Of a DNA stretch of 64,000 bases, positions 25,339 through 30,840 are shown piece by piece (the stretch's first letter is position 1; each line of letters begins with the position of its first letter). The translations under genes were made by a program, and so were the position numbers. This DNA comes from Verrucomicrobiia bacterium (GTDB taxonomy: Bacteria; Verrucomicrobiota; Verrucomicrobiia; Limisphaerales; JAEYXS01): positions 248,001-312,000 of the forward strand of contig DASWYF010000002.1 in the NCBI GenBank assembly GCA_036405135.1, read 5' to 3'. Under the pieces are notes generated by a model that made no database searches, was not told where the DNA came from, and worked only from the letters and a program-made list of their open reading frames with translations.

Positions 25339-25731
25339 TTAGCTATTCAGGATTTTTAGGGCCTTCTTCGCGTTTGAGACGCGGGCGATGAGCAGGCCGC
25401 TCTTCGCTGCCGGGCTGGTGGCGCAGTAGCAGTATTCGATGTTGATCTTGGCTGCGGCCAGCTTGCGCGAGATGTCGGCCAAGGAGCCAGGTTTGTTGCC
25501 GCCTTCGATCATCAGGACTTCATTATCCACCACCAAGGTGCCGTGCTCTTCGAACACGCGCAGGGCGCGGTCGGGATTGCTCACGACCATGCGGATGACC
25601 GAGTGATCCACGGTATCGCTGGTGCTGATGGCGTAGATGTTGATCTTCTCGGCGGCCAGAACGTCGCAAACTTTGGCAAGCATGCCCGGTCGGTTGTCGA
25701 GGAAGAGGGCGAGTTGTCGTGTGATTTCCAT
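25339..25731 (-). CDS. Tandem ACT-domain amino-acid-binding protein
   Basis: 130 residues consisting of two ACT domains: QLALFLDNRPGMLAKVCDVL at the N-terminus and MIEGGNKPGSLADISRKLAA from about residue 74, each with the conserved Gly-Met/Ser-Leu start of helix 1. Such proteins bind amino acids and act as sensors or regulatory subunits. There is no catalytic domain. It lies alone between the amylase gene and the repeat island; the ligand is unknown. Confidence 0.85.
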   Translation of the reverse strand: MEITRQLALFLDNRPGMLAKVCDVLAAEKINIYAISTSDTVDHSVIRMVVSNPDRALRVFEEHGTLVVDNEVLMIEGGNKPGSLADISRKLAAAKINIEYCYCATSPAAKSGLLIARVSNAKKALKILNS

Positions 25732-25845
25732 AAAATCTGAATCACCTGAGGTTGGTTATACTTAGCACTGAATCGGAGGTTAGTCGAGGATGTAAAATGG
25801 ATGCCGCTTTTGTGTCGTAAAAAACGAGAGTTGATTGGCTCGCTC

Positions 25846-26100
25846 ACTCCTCACCCCGGCCCTCTCCTCATTGAGCTGAGCATTACCCACAAGTGGTTAT
25901 ACAAGGAAGACAGCATCCAAAACAGCCTGAAGCCCCTTATCAAGGTGGGGCAAAGCTGCCGCTTTGCCCTGACTTTGGCCTTCACCGCCGCCTCTCAAAT
26001 GAAACCGGCCCCCGAAAAACGCAGCTCTCCCTGTCCTCAGTCTTGTTCATTCACACTTTATAGACTTGTGGGTAATGCTCAGCCTCATTGAGAGGAGAGG
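25846..26100. repeat. GAGGGG-type repeat split by a 207-bp insertion
   Basis: Left part CTCCTCACCCCGGCCCTCTC (from 25846) and right part GAGGAGAGGG (to 26100) join to a normal repeat copy if the element 25876-26082 and one 10-base duplicate are removed; the restored sequence would contain the hairpin CTCTCCTCATTGAGAGGAGAG minus one base (arms CTCTCCTC/GAGGAGAG). Confidence 0.75.
25876..26082. mobile_element. MITE-like non-coding insertion with 19-bp inverted ends
   Basis: The ends CTGAGCATTACCCACAAGT (25876-25894) and ACTTGTGGGTAATGCTCAG (26064-26082) are perfect reverse complements. They are flanked by direct copies of CCTCATTGAG (25866-25875 and 26083-26092), the expected target duplication. 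The 207-bp body has no gene. Its middle (25944-26036) is shared with 36222-36315. It has the build of a MITE moved by a transposase elsewhere in the genome; a 10-bp duplication would fit IS4- or ISAs1-like enzymes, but the family is not proven. Confidence 0.85.
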
Positions 26101-26207
26101 GAGAACATTTCACGCCGCTTGTTTCAAGGGTGACATCAATGTGAATTCGCAATATGCGATTTTTCCGTTTCATCAATTATCACCGGCTGGCTTTGTGAGG
26201 CAGCTTA

Positions 26208-26228
26208 CTGCCGGCTGGAATCCGGCAG
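26208..26228. repeat. CTGCCGG hairpin repeat
   Basis: CTGCCGG-CTGGAAT-CCGGCAG, same as copies at 14233 and 21872, placed 15 bases from the gltB terminator. Confidence 0.75.
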
Positions 26229-26242
26229 CACGGGCATTAAAA

Positions 26243-26274: not shown

Positions 26275-29200
26275 TTAGTAGCCGCCCTTAGGTGGCACCG
26301 TTGCGGTGGCCGCAGCGGGTTTGGTCTCCGGTTCGTGGACCGGAGCAGCGCCCGGAGGGGCCTTGGCCGGATGTGGGACGATGCGCCACATCTTGCTGAG
26401 AGCGTCCTTCCAGTTCTTCAAGATCTCGTTCGCACGCGGCGATTCGGTCTTCTCAAGGTGCTGGTAGATGAGGGCTTGCAGGGCCTTGATCTCTTCCTCG
26501 TTGTCGAGGCGTTCGATGCCCACCATCTGGTCGTTGTATTGGTCAGCGAACCGGCCATCGACGTCGTAAACGTAAGCGATACCACCGCTCATGCCCGCGC
26601 CGAAGTTACGGCCCGTGCGACCGAGGATGACCACCGTGCCGCCCGTCATGTATTCGCAACCGTGATCGCCCACGCCTTCCACTACGGCGGTGCCGCCGGA
26701 GTTACGGACGCAGAAGCGTTCACCAGCGCGACCCGCGGCGAAGAGGATACCACCCGTGGAACCATACATCACCGTGTTACCGATGATCTGGTTGTCCGCC
26801 CAGGTGAACTGGCAACCATCCGGCGGGCGGATGATGATCTCGCCACCGTTCATGCCCTTGCCGACGTAGTCGTTCGCTTCGCCGATGAGCTTCATCTTGA
26901 TGCCGTTCGCGAGGAATGTGCCGAAGCTCTGGCCCGCGCTGCCGGTCAACGTGATGTCGATGGAAGCCGGAGGCAGTCCCTTGTCGCCATACGTATAACC
27001 GATCTCACCGGACACCATCGTGCCGACGTTACGATAGACGTTGTTGATCTTGTAATTGAGCTTCACCGCGCCCTTGCCGTTCAGCGCGCGCTTGGCGTCG
27101 TGCATGATCTTGGCGTCGAGCGGGCTGTCACCGAAGCGTTCGTTGCGCTCGCGGGTGTGGATGCGCGTGGCGGAACCAGTCGGGTCCACTTGATAGAGCA
27201 AGCGGTCGAGGTTCAGGCTCGCGACCTTGCCTTGCACTTCCGCCGGGAAGCTCTCCACGGGCTTGCGCTCGATGAGGTCCGTGCGGCCGATGATGTCGTT
27301 CAATGTCTTGAAGCCGAGTTGCGCGAGGATTTCGCGAACTTCCTGGGCCACACCGTTGAAGTAAGCCACCACGTTCTCGGGCTTGCCGCGGAACTTGAGG
27401 CGCAACTTGTCTTCCTGCGTGGCGACACCGACAGGGCAGGTGTTCAGATGGCAGACGCGGAACATCGCGCAACCAGCCGCCACGAGGGCGCCGGTGCCGA
27501 AGTTATACTCTTCACCACCGAGGATGGCCGCCATGACGATGTCATGACCGGTCTTCAGACCGCCGTCCGTGCGCAGAACCACGCGGGAGCGCAGGTCATT
27601 CAGCATGAGCGTCTGATGCGCTTCTGCCAGACCGAGCTCGAACGGGCTGCCAGCGTACTTGATGGAGCTGAGCGGGGAGGCGCCCGTGCCGCCGTCGTGA
27701 CCGCTGATGAGGACGACGTCCGCATAGGCCTTGGCCACACCGGCGGCGACAGTGCCGACACCGGCTTCAGCCACCAGCTTCACGCAGACCTTCGCGCGCG
27801 GATTGACCTGCTTGAGGTCGTAGATCAGCTGCGACAGGTCTTCGATGGAGTAAATGTCATGGTGCGGCGGCGGCGAGATGAGCGGCACGCCGGGCGTGCT
27901 GTGACGCAGCTTAGCAATGAGCGGGGACACTTTGTGTCCGGGCAATTGGCCGCCTTCGCCGGGCTTCGCGCCCTGCGCCATCTTGATCTCGATCTCTTGT
28001 GCGCTCGCCAGATATTCCGGCGTCACACCGAAGCGGCCGGAGGCCACCTGCTTGATCGCGGAGTTCGCGTTGTCGCCGTTCTCACGGACGGTGTAGCGGG
28101 CGCTGTCCTCGCCACCTTCGCCGGAGTTCGATTTGCCGCCGATGCTGTTCATCGCGATAGCCAAGCACTCGTGCGCTTCCGTGGAGAGAGCGCCCAAGCT
28201 CATGCCGGCGGTGGTGAACCGCACGCGGATGTTCTCGATCGGTTCGACTTCCTCGATGGAGATAGGGGTGCCGGGCTTGAACTTCAACAAGTCACGGGGA
28301 GAAATCGGATCGCGGCCCTGGACGGTATCCACGAACTTGAGGTATTCCTCGCGTTTGCCTTCCTTGAGGAAGCGGTGCAGCGTCTGGACAACTTGCTTGT
28401 TGTAGGCGTGGTATTCGCCACGGCCACCACTGAGCACCTTGTAATTGCCGCCCTCGTCGAGCACAGCCGTCTCGGGATTCGCATACGCGCTCTGGTGGCG
28501 GCGCAGGGAATCTTCCGCGATCTGCTTCAGCGAGATGCCGCTGATGAGCGAGGTGGTACCGAAGAAGCAACGATCGATGACTTCTTCCGACACGCCGATG
28601 GCCTCGAAGATCTGGCCGCCGCGATAGCTCGCGATGGTCGAGATGCCCATCTTGGACATGATTTTGAGGATGCCGCTCTCAATGGATTTGCGGTAGTTTG
28701 CCACGGCTTTCTCAACCGTAATGCCAGCCCATTCACCGCTCTGGATGAACTGTCGGATGATGTCGATGGCCACATACGGATTGATGGCGGAAGCGCCGTA
28801 ACCGATGAGTGTGGCGAAGTGATGCACATCACGTGCTTCACCCGTTTCGCAAACGATGGAAACGCGCATGCGTTTGCCTTCGCGGATGAGGTGGTGATGC
28901 ACGGCACCGACGGCGAGGAGCATCGGAACTGGAACGCGCTCGGCGTTCGTGCCTCGGTCGCTCAGGATGAGGACGCACTTGCCTTCATCCACGGCTTGCG
29001 AAGCGCGGGCACAGATGGCGTTCAATGCGGAGTCCAGATCTGCCGCACCTTTTTGCGCGCTAAAATGGCAGTAGAGCGTCTCGCAGTTGAAAGCGGGATC
29101 GGCGATGTTCTTGAGCGCTTCCAACTCGTATTCGAGCAGGAAAGGGCTATCAAGTTCGATTTGCTTCGCGTGTTCAGGGGTTTCCTGCAACCAAGAACGC

Positions 29201-30840
29201 TTCTGACCGATGGTGGTCGAGAGCGACATCACGATCTTCTCGCGAATGGAATCGATCGGAGGGTTCGTGACCTGCGCGAACAACTGGCGGAAGTAAGAGT
29301 AAAGGAGCTTGGGTTTGCGTGAGAGCACGGCCAACGGGGTGTCATCACCCATGGAGCCGATCGCCTCCTGGCCTTCCATGGCCATGGGCTTCATGATCGT
29401 CTGCAATTCTTCGCTGTCCCAGCCGAAGGTGATCTCCTGCAGGGTCAGGTCAAGCAAGTTGACCGGATTATGATTTTCGCTGAACGGCTTGGCGTGTTTG
29501 GCCAGCGAGAACAACTGCTGATCGCACCATTCGCCGTACGGCTGCTTGCCGGCGACGTGGTTCTTCACCTCATCGTTCTCCATGAACTTGCCGGCTTCGA
29601 GATCGATGGCGATGATGCGGCCTGGTCCGAGGCGGCCCTTGCGCACGACCTTCTTCTCATCTAACACCACGACGCCCGCTTCCGAGCCCATGACGATCAA
29701 GCCGTCATCGTAAATCTTGTAGCGGGCCGGACGCAGACCGTTACGGTCAAGCGTGGCACCAATGACTTTGCCATCGCTGAACACCACGGCAGCAGGACCG
29801 TCCCAAGGTTCGTTCAAGCTGGCGTGATAGCGGTAGAAACCCTTCACGTTGCAGGCGACGTCCTTCGACTTCTCCCAAGCTTCCGGAGCGAGCATCATCA
29901 CAGAGTGGAGGATGCTGCGACCGCTCAGCTCAAGCAATTCGAGAGCGTTATCCAAAGCGGCGGAGTCTGAACCGCCGGGCTGGATGATCGGCTTCAAATG
30001 TTCGGTGTTTTCACCCCAGACTTCGGAGATGAGTTCGCGTTCGCGGGCACGGGTCCAGTTCTTGTTGCCCAAGAGCGTGTTGATCTCGCCGTTGTGCGCC
30101 AAGGTGCGGAACGGATGCGCAAGCTGCCAGTTCGGGAACGTGTTCGTGGAATAGCGCTGGTGATAGATCGCCAGCGAGGTCACGTACAGCGGGTCCTTCA
30201 GGTCGGTGAAGAACTTCGGCAACTGCGGGGCGTTGAACAAGCCCTTGTAAACGATGGTGCGTGAGGAGAAGGACGGGATGTAGAAGCTGTCGATCTTCTC
30301 TTCGAGAGCGCGGCGCTCGGCGACCTTACGGGCCAAGTAGAGGCGGCGTTCGAATTCGTCATCGCTCCAGCCGCCGGTGCGGCCGAGGAGAATCTGTTGC
30401 ATCTCGGGCAAGGTCTCGCGGGCCTTGTCGCCCAAGCTGCGGGTGTTCGTAGGCACGGAGCGCCAGCCGAAGATATGGATGCCGAACTGGGCGCAAGCCT
30501 CTTCGACGATGCGGTGGCAGTTGCTGATCTGGTATTTATTACCGCGGGGCAGGAAGATGAAGCCGACGGCCAAGTCGCTGTCGTTCATCAACTTGCCGCC
30601 GAGCTTCTCGACTTCACGGCGGAAGAGCGCGCGAGGAAGTTGGGTCAATACGCCAGCGCCGTCGCCGGTTTTGGCATCGGCATCCAAGGCACCACGATGG
30701 GCCAGGTTGCAGAGTGCCTGAATGGCGTATTCGAGGATGCGATGTTCCTGCTTGCCATTGATGTTAGCGATGAAACCAACGCCGCAGGCATCGTGCTCGT
30801 TCTTCGCGTCGTACAGTGAGTTCGGTATATTCGGATACAT
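26275..30840 (-). CDS. gltB: Glutamate synthase large subunit
   Basis: 1521 residues, full family length. The N-terminal glutaminase (class II amidotransferase) has CGVGF with Cys19 as the nucleophile after processing, and HRGALDADAKTGDGAG. The central and FMN synthase domains follow (KVSPLIAKLRHSTPGVPLIS, SGHDGGTGASPLSSIKYAG), then the 3Fe-4S cysteines CAMFRVCHLNTCPVGVATQ and the C-terminal beta-helix GXGXG domain. It makes two glutamates from glutamine and 2-oxoglutarate. The small subunit gltD is not in the window, so the electron donor subunit must be elsewhere or ferredoxin is used. A Pro/Ala-rich tail of about 30 residues extends the C-terminus. A strong terminator follows directly. Confidence 0.95.
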   Translation of the reverse strand: MYPNIPNSLYDAKNEHDACGVGFIANINGKQEHRILEYAIQALCNLAHRGALDADAKTGDGAGVLTQLPRALFRREVEKLGGKLMNDSDLAVGFIFLPRGNKYQISNCHRIVEEACAQFGIHIFGWRSVPTNTRSLGDKARETLPEMQQILLGRTGGWSDDEFERRLYLARKVAERRALEEKIDSFYIPSFSSRTIVYKGLFNAPQLPKFFTDLKDPLYVTSLAIYHQRYSTNTFPNWQLAHPFRTLAHNGEINTLLGNKNWTRARERELISEVWGENTEHLKPIIQPGGSDSAALDNALELLELSGRSILHSVMMLAPEAWEKSKDVACNVKGFYRYHASLNEPWDGPAAVVFSDGKVIGATLDRNGLRPARYKIYDDGLIVMGSEAGVVVLDEKKVVRKGRLGPGRIIAIDLEAGKFMENDEVKNHVAGKQPYGEWCDQQLFSLAKHAKPFSENHNPVNLLDLTLQEITFGWDSEELQTIMKPMAMEGQEAIGSMGDDTPLAVLSRKPKLLYSYFRQLFAQVTNPPIDSIREKIVMSLSTTIGQKRSWLQETPEHAKQIELDSPFLLEYELEALKNIADPAFNCETLYCHFSAQKGAADLDSALNAICARASQAVDEGKCVLILSDRGTNAERVPVPMLLAVGAVHHHLIREGKRMRVSIVCETGEARDVHHFATLIGYGASAINPYVAIDIIRQFIQSGEWAGITVEKAVANYRKSIESGILKIMSKMGISTIASYRGGQIFEAIGVSEEVIDRCFFGTTSLISGISLKQIAEDSLRRHQSAYANPETAVLDEGGNYKVLSGGRGEYHAYNKQVVQTLHRFLKEGKREEYLKFVDTVQGRDPISPRDLLKFKPGTPISIEEVEPIENIRVRFTTAGMSLGALSTEAHECLAIAMNSIGGKSNSGEGGEDSARYTVRENGDNANSAIKQVASGRFGVTPEYLASAQEIEIKMAQGAKPGEGGQLPGHKVSPLIAKLRHSTPGVPLISPPPHHDIYSIEDLSQLIYDLKQVNPRAKVCVKLVAEAGVGTVAAGVAKAYADVVLISGHDGGTGASPLSSIKYAGSPFELGLAEAHQTLMLNDLRSRVVLRTDGGLKTGHDIVMAAILGGEEYNFGTGALVAAGCAMFRVCHLNTCPVGVATQEDKLRLKFRGKPENVVAYFNGVAQEVREILAQLGFKTLNDIIGRTDLIERKPVESFPAEVQGKVASLNLDRLLYQVDPTGSATRIHTRERNERFGDSPLDAKIMHDAKRALNGKGAVKLNYKINNVYRNVGTMVSGEIGYTYGDKGLPPASIDITLTGSAGQSFGTFLANGIKMKLIGEANDYVGKGMNGGEIIIRPPDGCQFTWADNQIIGNTVMYGSTGGILFAAGRAGERFCVRNSGGTAVVEGVGDHGCEYMTGGTVVILGRTGRNFGAGMSGGIAYVYDVDGRFADQYNDQMVGIERLDNEEEIKALQALIYQHLEKTESPRANEILKNWKDALSKMWRIVPHPAKAPPGAAPVHEPETKPAAATATVPPKGGY

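Follow-up and report, generated by a model that had tools for sequence, protein, structure and literature searches.

A gene-less element with IS50-type ends and its insertion in dispersed palindromic repeats of Verrucomicrobiia

A 207-bp element in the genome of a Verrucomicrobiia bacterium is probably a nonautonomous mini-transposon of the Tn5/IS50 type whose transposase lineage prefers dyad-symmetric targets and inserts near the center of dispersed palindromic repeats. We put the probability of this reading at about 0.8, lowered from 0.82 because 3 of the 11 perfect target duplications, including that of the copy described here, exceed the published 8 to 9 bp. This copy lies in a stretch of 64,000 nucleotides (here called the window; contig C2, positions 248001 to 312000) of a 5.8-Mb genome in 52 contigs (G000).

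Anatomy, empty site, and copies of the element

The initial annotation had described a MITE-like element of 207 bp with perfect 19-bp inverted repeats as ends, a 10-bp direct duplication on both sides, and a body that encodes nothing. Inspection of the window bore this description out. The features are as follows, in window coordinates.

25835..25875, no strand: left half of the host GAGGGG-type dispersed repeat, with palindrome arm CCCTCTCCTC at 25860-25869
25866..25875, no strand: left copy of the target duplication, CCTCATTGAG, 10 bp
25876..26082, plus strand: MITE with IS50-subgroup ends, 207 bp
25876..25894, plus strand: left terminal inverted repeat, CTGAGCATTACCCACAAGT, 19 bp
25947..25969, plus strand: inner hairpin, GGGGCAAAGC-TGCC-GCTTTGCCC
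26064..26082, minus strand: right terminal inverted repeat, 19 bp, the reverse complement of the left one
26083..26092, no strand: right copy of the target duplication, CCTCATTGAG, 10 bp
26083..26110, no strand: right half of the host GAGGGG-type dispersed repeat, with palindrome arm GAGGAGAGGG at 26092-26101

A search for inverted repeats returned 20 nt, the additional position being a chance pairing of the two duplications, one with its final base and the other with its initial one. A mechanical open reading frame (ORF) of 96 aa (25801-26091) runs across the MITE, and its frame is shifted by indels between copies; the MITE has no conserved ORF and is noncoding in practice. The element is short and present in multiple copies, and it has terminal inverted repeats, target duplications, and readable empty sites but no transposase gene, as expected of a MITE. 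It is intergenic, located between a 130-aa ORF (25339-25731, minus strand) and a 1,521-aa ORF (26275-30840, minus strand), whose products appear by eye to be ACT-domain-like and glutamate synthase-like, respectively. Another dispersed hairpin repeat lies beside the MITE at 26182-26236 and is found elsewhere in at least four places in G000, at least six in the same-genus genome G001, and at least five in the congener G002.

Removal of the element and one duplication joins the flanks to CCCTCTCCTCATTGAGAGGAGAGGG, which is part of a repeat of about 57 bp. We fetched 17 loci, of which 16 were chosen as matches to this repeat and one (L143) as the orthologous locus in G002. The uninterrupted repeat was present in 15 of the 17 at 91 to 98% identity, with identical central bases in some; at L159, it was matched in two pieces only. 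In addition, G000 contains 67 intact palindromes of the form CCCTCTCC-N0-18-GGAGAGGG, compared with none of the reversed pattern used as a control. The initial reading, an insertion into a dispersed repeat whose empty site can be reconstructed, is thus borne out. The orthologous gene pair is 87 to 88% alike in G000 and G002, with 33 unaligned intergenic bases in G002 versus 479 in the window, and neither the MITE nor its host repeat lies between the genes in G002. The orthologous site thus predates both, and it is unfilled repeat copies at other loci that show the empty site. The comparison also implies that two layers (the GAGGGG-type repeat and the MITE within it) were either gained in G000 or lost from G002.

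The element had at least 39 matches in its own genome at an E value of ≤0.001 (a lower bound, as 40 of 52 candidates were scored; three are the ends of the query matching themselves in reverse). These comprise full or nearly full copies that are 96 to 99% identical to the window's element, a subfamily at 87 to 88% in which the left arm is shorter, copies that are older or have a single end, and matches to the core that lack ends. The 19-bp end alone had 27 matches with up to three mismatches, and the reversed control had none, so the ends are not due to chance. The initial annotation would have given up its reading if no genome held another copy of these ends; such copies exist. Contigs C21, C36, C39, and C44 start or stop within MITE copies, as expected for a repeat.

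Flanks could be read for 15 insertions in G000. In eight of them, the two flanks are on a single contig, and in six, one flank is available; the last is the pair L015 and L016, which we take as two halves of one insertion with the duplication GCCTTCAGGC. Among the eight two-flank insertions, perfect duplications measured 10 bp in the window, 9 bp at L009, L011, L012, and L017, and 8 bp at L013. Ends with more than two mismatches were used only when paired with a better end, which left L020 and L026 outside the 15; of these two, only L026 shows a GAGGGG arm by eye.

The core hairpin is also dispersed in the genome without MITE ends, in part with about 60 extra bases. Copies of this hairpin lie on either side of a RAYT-like gene (L034; contig C37, 778-1161) that matches Pfam Y1_Tnp below the cutoff (E = 0.021) and appears by eye to be truncated by an in-frame stop. 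A REP-like unit may have been taken up into the MITE; alternatively, copies consisting of the core alone may be what is left of decayed MITEs. REPs moved by RAYTs are typically small palindromes with neither terminal inverted repeats nor target duplications. Since the element has both, we rejected a RAYT (IS200/IS605-type) origin for the element as a whole; it is the inner hairpin alone that resembles the repeat beside the RAYT-like gene. A known RNA family within the element was likewise dropped (two matches, both below the gathering score). Two nested arrangements were seen in the same genome. In the L017 copy (contig C31), an unrelated element of about 346 bp with ends TCAGTGGTGTCCAGCTAT and TCAGTAGTGTCCAGCTAT occupies the loop of the inner hairpin and is flanked by an 8-bp duplication, GCTGCCGC. 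At L067 (contig C48, 1501-1861), a 361-bp segment has decayed ends of the MITE type, GAGGGG-like halves outside, and another GAGGGG-like repeat inside.

IS50-type ends and a candidate partner insertion sequence

Members of the IS50 subgroup are described as insertion sequences (ISs) of 1,350 to 1,550 bp with direct repeats of 8 to 9 bp, a common end signature, and a YREK motif (PMC2266710). The end CTGAGCATTACCCACAAGT fits the signature CW------Y---CA-A--W- when compared by eye with Table 1 of that paper. Across the genomes examined, perfect duplications of 8 to 10 bp flank 11 of 23 paired elements (two of 8 bp, six of 9 bp, and three of 10 bp, among them the window's own), and four more have one mismatch; the remaining eight have no good duplication. 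The MITE end is also identical at 14 of 19 positions to what we take to be the outer end of IS50.

In G001, we found a 1,407-bp IS (L103:1501-2907) that is bounded by the ends CTAAGCATTACCCATAAGT and CTGGTCATTACCCATAAGT and encodes a 443-aa transposase. The protein matched the Pfam families Dimer_Tnp_Tn5 (1.7e-16), Tnp_DNA_bind (1.4e-12), and DDE_Tnp_1 (5.6e-6) and the NCBIfam model NF033590 (IS4_3; 2.8e-113), and its best match among structures was Tn5 transposase (3ecp; 1.1e-39). It carries YREK at residue 304 and is, with its DDE domain, a Tn5-type transposase of the kind sought in a partner. The IS sits in GAGGGG-like flanks, of which the left passes the arm pattern and the right is recognizable by eye only. 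It is one of the eight elements without a good duplication. Its two flanks mismatch as if they came from different sites, and the right flank corresponds to the left one of a different copy (L097), which indicates that recombination or assembly has fused two copies. By eye, the likeness of the MITE to this IS is confined to the ends; the body of the MITE is no truncated version of it. IS ends with transposase code also follow GAGGGG-like arms in G047 (two) and G062 (one), and four ISs of G063 with related ends (CTTGTCATTACCCACATCT) all lie, by eye, outside GAGGGG repeats.

In G000 itself, searches with the L103 transposase, NF033590, and PF02281 gave no match, and PF14706 gave one match under the cutoff. 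The L103 transposase had matches in four of eight related genomes (G191 was not among the four), and NF033590 had matches in 7 of 16 genomes, over the cutoff in 2; no MITE-type ends were found near one of these two, that in G326 (L207). Viral contigs held no relatives of the transposase. The full-length IS that the initial annotation had proposed to look for thus exists with similar ends in the same genus, but none was found in the MITE's own genome. As judged from the ends and the candidate partner IS, the MITE probably belongs to the IS4 family, IS50 (Tn5) subgroup. Since its own genome yielded no such transposase, mobilization in trans by an IS50-type enzyme, the route that had been proposed in general terms, is what we infer, and the G000 copies may now be stranded or immobile. 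A transposase of the partner type would bind both 19-bp ends, excise the element, and join it to the target through a staggered cut of 8 to 10 bp, which would give rise to the duplication. Insertion would take place near the center of hairpin-forming repeats, namely, the GAGGGG repeat in this genome and other hairpins elsewhere.

A different family of transposase encoded in G000 could instead move these ends, as might be supposed from copies that are 96 to 99% alike in a genome with no detected IS50-type transposase. We consider this improbable: the end signature, most of the duplication lengths, and the same-genus IS with similar ends all indicate IS50, and the assembly (97.8% complete, 52 contigs) breaks at several copies, so an IS may have been lost or left unassembled. 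A REP-targeting origin of the IS110 or IS3 type (IS1397 belongs to the IS3 family) was also dropped, as IS50 better fits the ends and duplications.

Target preference for palindromic repeats

Two points had been missed in the initial annotation, namely, the IS50 type of the ends and the preference for the interrupted repeat as a target. In 10 of the 15 readable insertions in G000, a CCCTCTCC-like arm lies no more than 28 bp from an end (P = 5e-10 relative to window positions outside ORFs of at least 150 codons). This is the strict count; L014 is an eleventh case by eye, and its inclusion gives a P value of 1.4e-11. Among the flanks outside G191, 49 of 73 have such an arm within the same distance, compared with 366 of 20,000 random windows (1.8%). 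In the flank counts, flanks sharing their last 15 bases were entered a single time, so that some separate G191 and Planctomycetota copies were merged, and the two flanks of one insertion were counted as two. We also reconstructed the empty sites of the 23 paired elements and scored pairing around a dyad no more than 3 bp from the center of the duplication. On average, 8.8 of 14 positions were paired (control, 6.4), and 11 of the 23 sites had at least 10 pairs (control, 0.9%). The insertions are thus concentrated in dispersed palindromic repeats, as in REP-targeting elements. There are exceptions: the L009 site is nonpalindromic (3 of 14 pairs) yet has a clean 9-bp duplication, and L023 and L024 are not clear-cut.

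Such a distribution might arise with no active choice of target, if selection had purged all other insertions and hairpin repeats were merely safe intergenic places. MITEs that survive have been filtered by selection, and the window's copy is indeed intergenic. We regard this as highly improbable, since the arm count in G000 is extreme even against the intergenic-like background of the window and since mere avoidance of gene damage does not require a cut near the dyad.

The target could also be defined by the letters of the GAGGGG repeat rather than by its symmetry. In a scan of named genomes for the exact end, we found 23 stretches in nine metagenome-assembled genomes (MAGs) labeled Deltaproteobacteria (three), Desulfobacca, Syntrophobacterales, Planctomycetota (two), Verrucomicrobiales, and Thiotrichales. 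GAGGGG arms predominate in these MAGs, which span several phyla (24 of 30 flanks; none at L185, L189, L190 [Thiotrichales], L193, and L194), as expected of a sequence-specific enzyme. Against this stand three observations that make it, in our view, unlikely. First, the L015/L016 insertion in G000 lies in an unrelated perfect hairpin, CCGTGGCCTTCAGGCCACGG. Second, the same 19-bp end uses an unrelated hairpin repeat in G191. The end occurs with at most one mismatch in 8 of 320 genomes of the same order (G000 included), and G191 alone contains 121 such ends, 36 of them exact. MITEs of other sizes in G191 and G062 (88, 286, 297, 299, and 305 bp; at L176, 475 bp between ends) have the same ends around other hairpin-rich bodies. 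The G191 copies lie in a GCGGT-8 nt-ACCGC repeat, with GCGG ahead of the last 8 to 9 bases in 18 of 21 flanks (a pattern picked after viewing the flanks), and at L125 the entire 8-nt loop AACTAGGC is duplicated between GGCGGT and ACCGC. Third, ISs from Nostoc, Anabaena, Deinococcus, and haloarchaea use other palindromes, as described below. Target choice therefore seems to follow dyad symmetry more than any one sequence, and the enzyme would recognize symmetry or hairpin shape rather than the GAGGGG letters. At two further G191 loci (L126 and L127), the left and right flanks seemingly derive from different target sites, which suggests recombination between copies or misassembly.

The search for plasmid relatives of the transposase gave 711 records at 1e-5 and 183 at 1e-40, and ISs were chosen among these relatives. 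Nineteen ISs were scanned, and ends plus a duplication were found in 14 (the five without a clear combination were from Thiodictyon, Leptolyngbya, Pseudosulfitobacter, Nostoc HK-01, and Mycetohabitans). Eleven of the 14 are proteobacterial and have no centered dyad (5 to 8 of 14 pairs; control mean, 6.4); the Polaromonas IS has 8 of 14 pairs with a dyad one base off center. The ISs of Nostoc (9 pairs), Deinococcus (12 pairs), and Natribaculum (10 pairs) are exactly hairpin centered. We then added eight ISs chosen by kinship to the hairpin-sited ones, which makes this a biased sample. Three had no ends plus duplication (Haloarcula, Natribaculum luteum, and Halorubrum), and that of N. longum repeats a counted site. 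The relatives in Anabaena, Halobellus, Halococcus, and a second Natribaculum plasmid were again centered, with 8 to 9 pairs and an offset of 0 to 0.5; a random centered position has at least 8 pairs in 4% of cases. Hairpin-centered ISs made up 3 of the 14 scored initially and, once the added ones are included, 7 of 18 distinct sites. At the Nostoc, Anabaena, Deinococcus, and four haloarchaeal sites, the IS lies within 0.5 bp of the hairpin dyad. The haloarchaeal plasmid ISs L237, L238, L241, and L242 are IS50-type elements within hairpins that resemble the ends of IS200/IS605-type elements.

In a tree of 18 transposases, four labeled hairpin users fall outside two well-supported groups of six; the tree has weak deep forks and several long branches, and the target is known for all but two rows. 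One row scored as nonhairpin (L117 of G190) has complementary flanks and no duplication. These results suggest that some Tn5-type elements select targets by palindromic symmetry. A broader proposal, to which we give somewhat less than even odds, is that one or more Tn5-type lineages across bacteria and haloarchaea pick structure, inserting at the symmetry center of unrelated hairpin repeats (possibly extruded cruciforms) and duplicating the loop, and that they and their MITEs have hence become stable residents of REP-like repeats.

Precedents and significance

The element shares with IS50, the outer element of Tn5, its end signature and mostly 8- to 9-bp duplications, and its candidate partner is a 1,407-bp IS with a YREK transposase. 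It differs in being gene-less, in the 10-bp duplications (3 of 11 perfect ones), and in its strong bias toward hairpin dyads. A partial precedent is ISRm22, an IS4-family element of Sinorhizobium meliloti of which every copy lies in REPs, on the axis of palindromy (PMC1525189); the same paper cites a palindromic tendency of Tn5 targets. ISRm22 differs from the present case in belonging to another subgroup (IS4Sa; PMC2266710), in its 6-bp repeats, in its restriction to one species, and in being an autonomous IS. Dispersed palindromic repeats are also targeted by IS1397, IS621, and ISPpu9, the latter two of the IS110 family (PMC1525189), but these are not of the IS50 type. QMITE2 of Coxiella burnetii is a MITE of 150 to 190 bp with 7- to 11-nt repeats and a REP inside (PMC5896051). 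That REP, however, is the target of another IS, and the passages of the paper that deal with QMITE2 do not mention an IS50 origin.

Beyond these precedents, our literature search, which covered few subscription papers and is weak evidence of novelty, found no report on MITEs of the IS50 subgroup or on hairpin-centered targets of that subgroup. The string ATTACCCACAAGT was found in no paper, and among the listed matches to the string AACCCTCTCCC, no title concerned the host repeat. What is added to the earlier reading is the IS50/Tn5 type of the element, the kind of IS that is a candidate for its partner, and a rule of target choice that applies across several phyla.

In the laboratory, Tn5 transposase is widely used as a tool and is loose in its choice of target. 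If our reading is correct, its hairpin-centered natural relatives would show how one enzyme family can gain a strict and mostly harmless target, and whether structure or letters are recognized becomes directly testable. It would also partly explain the layered intergenic repeats of Verrucomicrobia and other phyla, in which mobile elements are nested in the loops of repeats.
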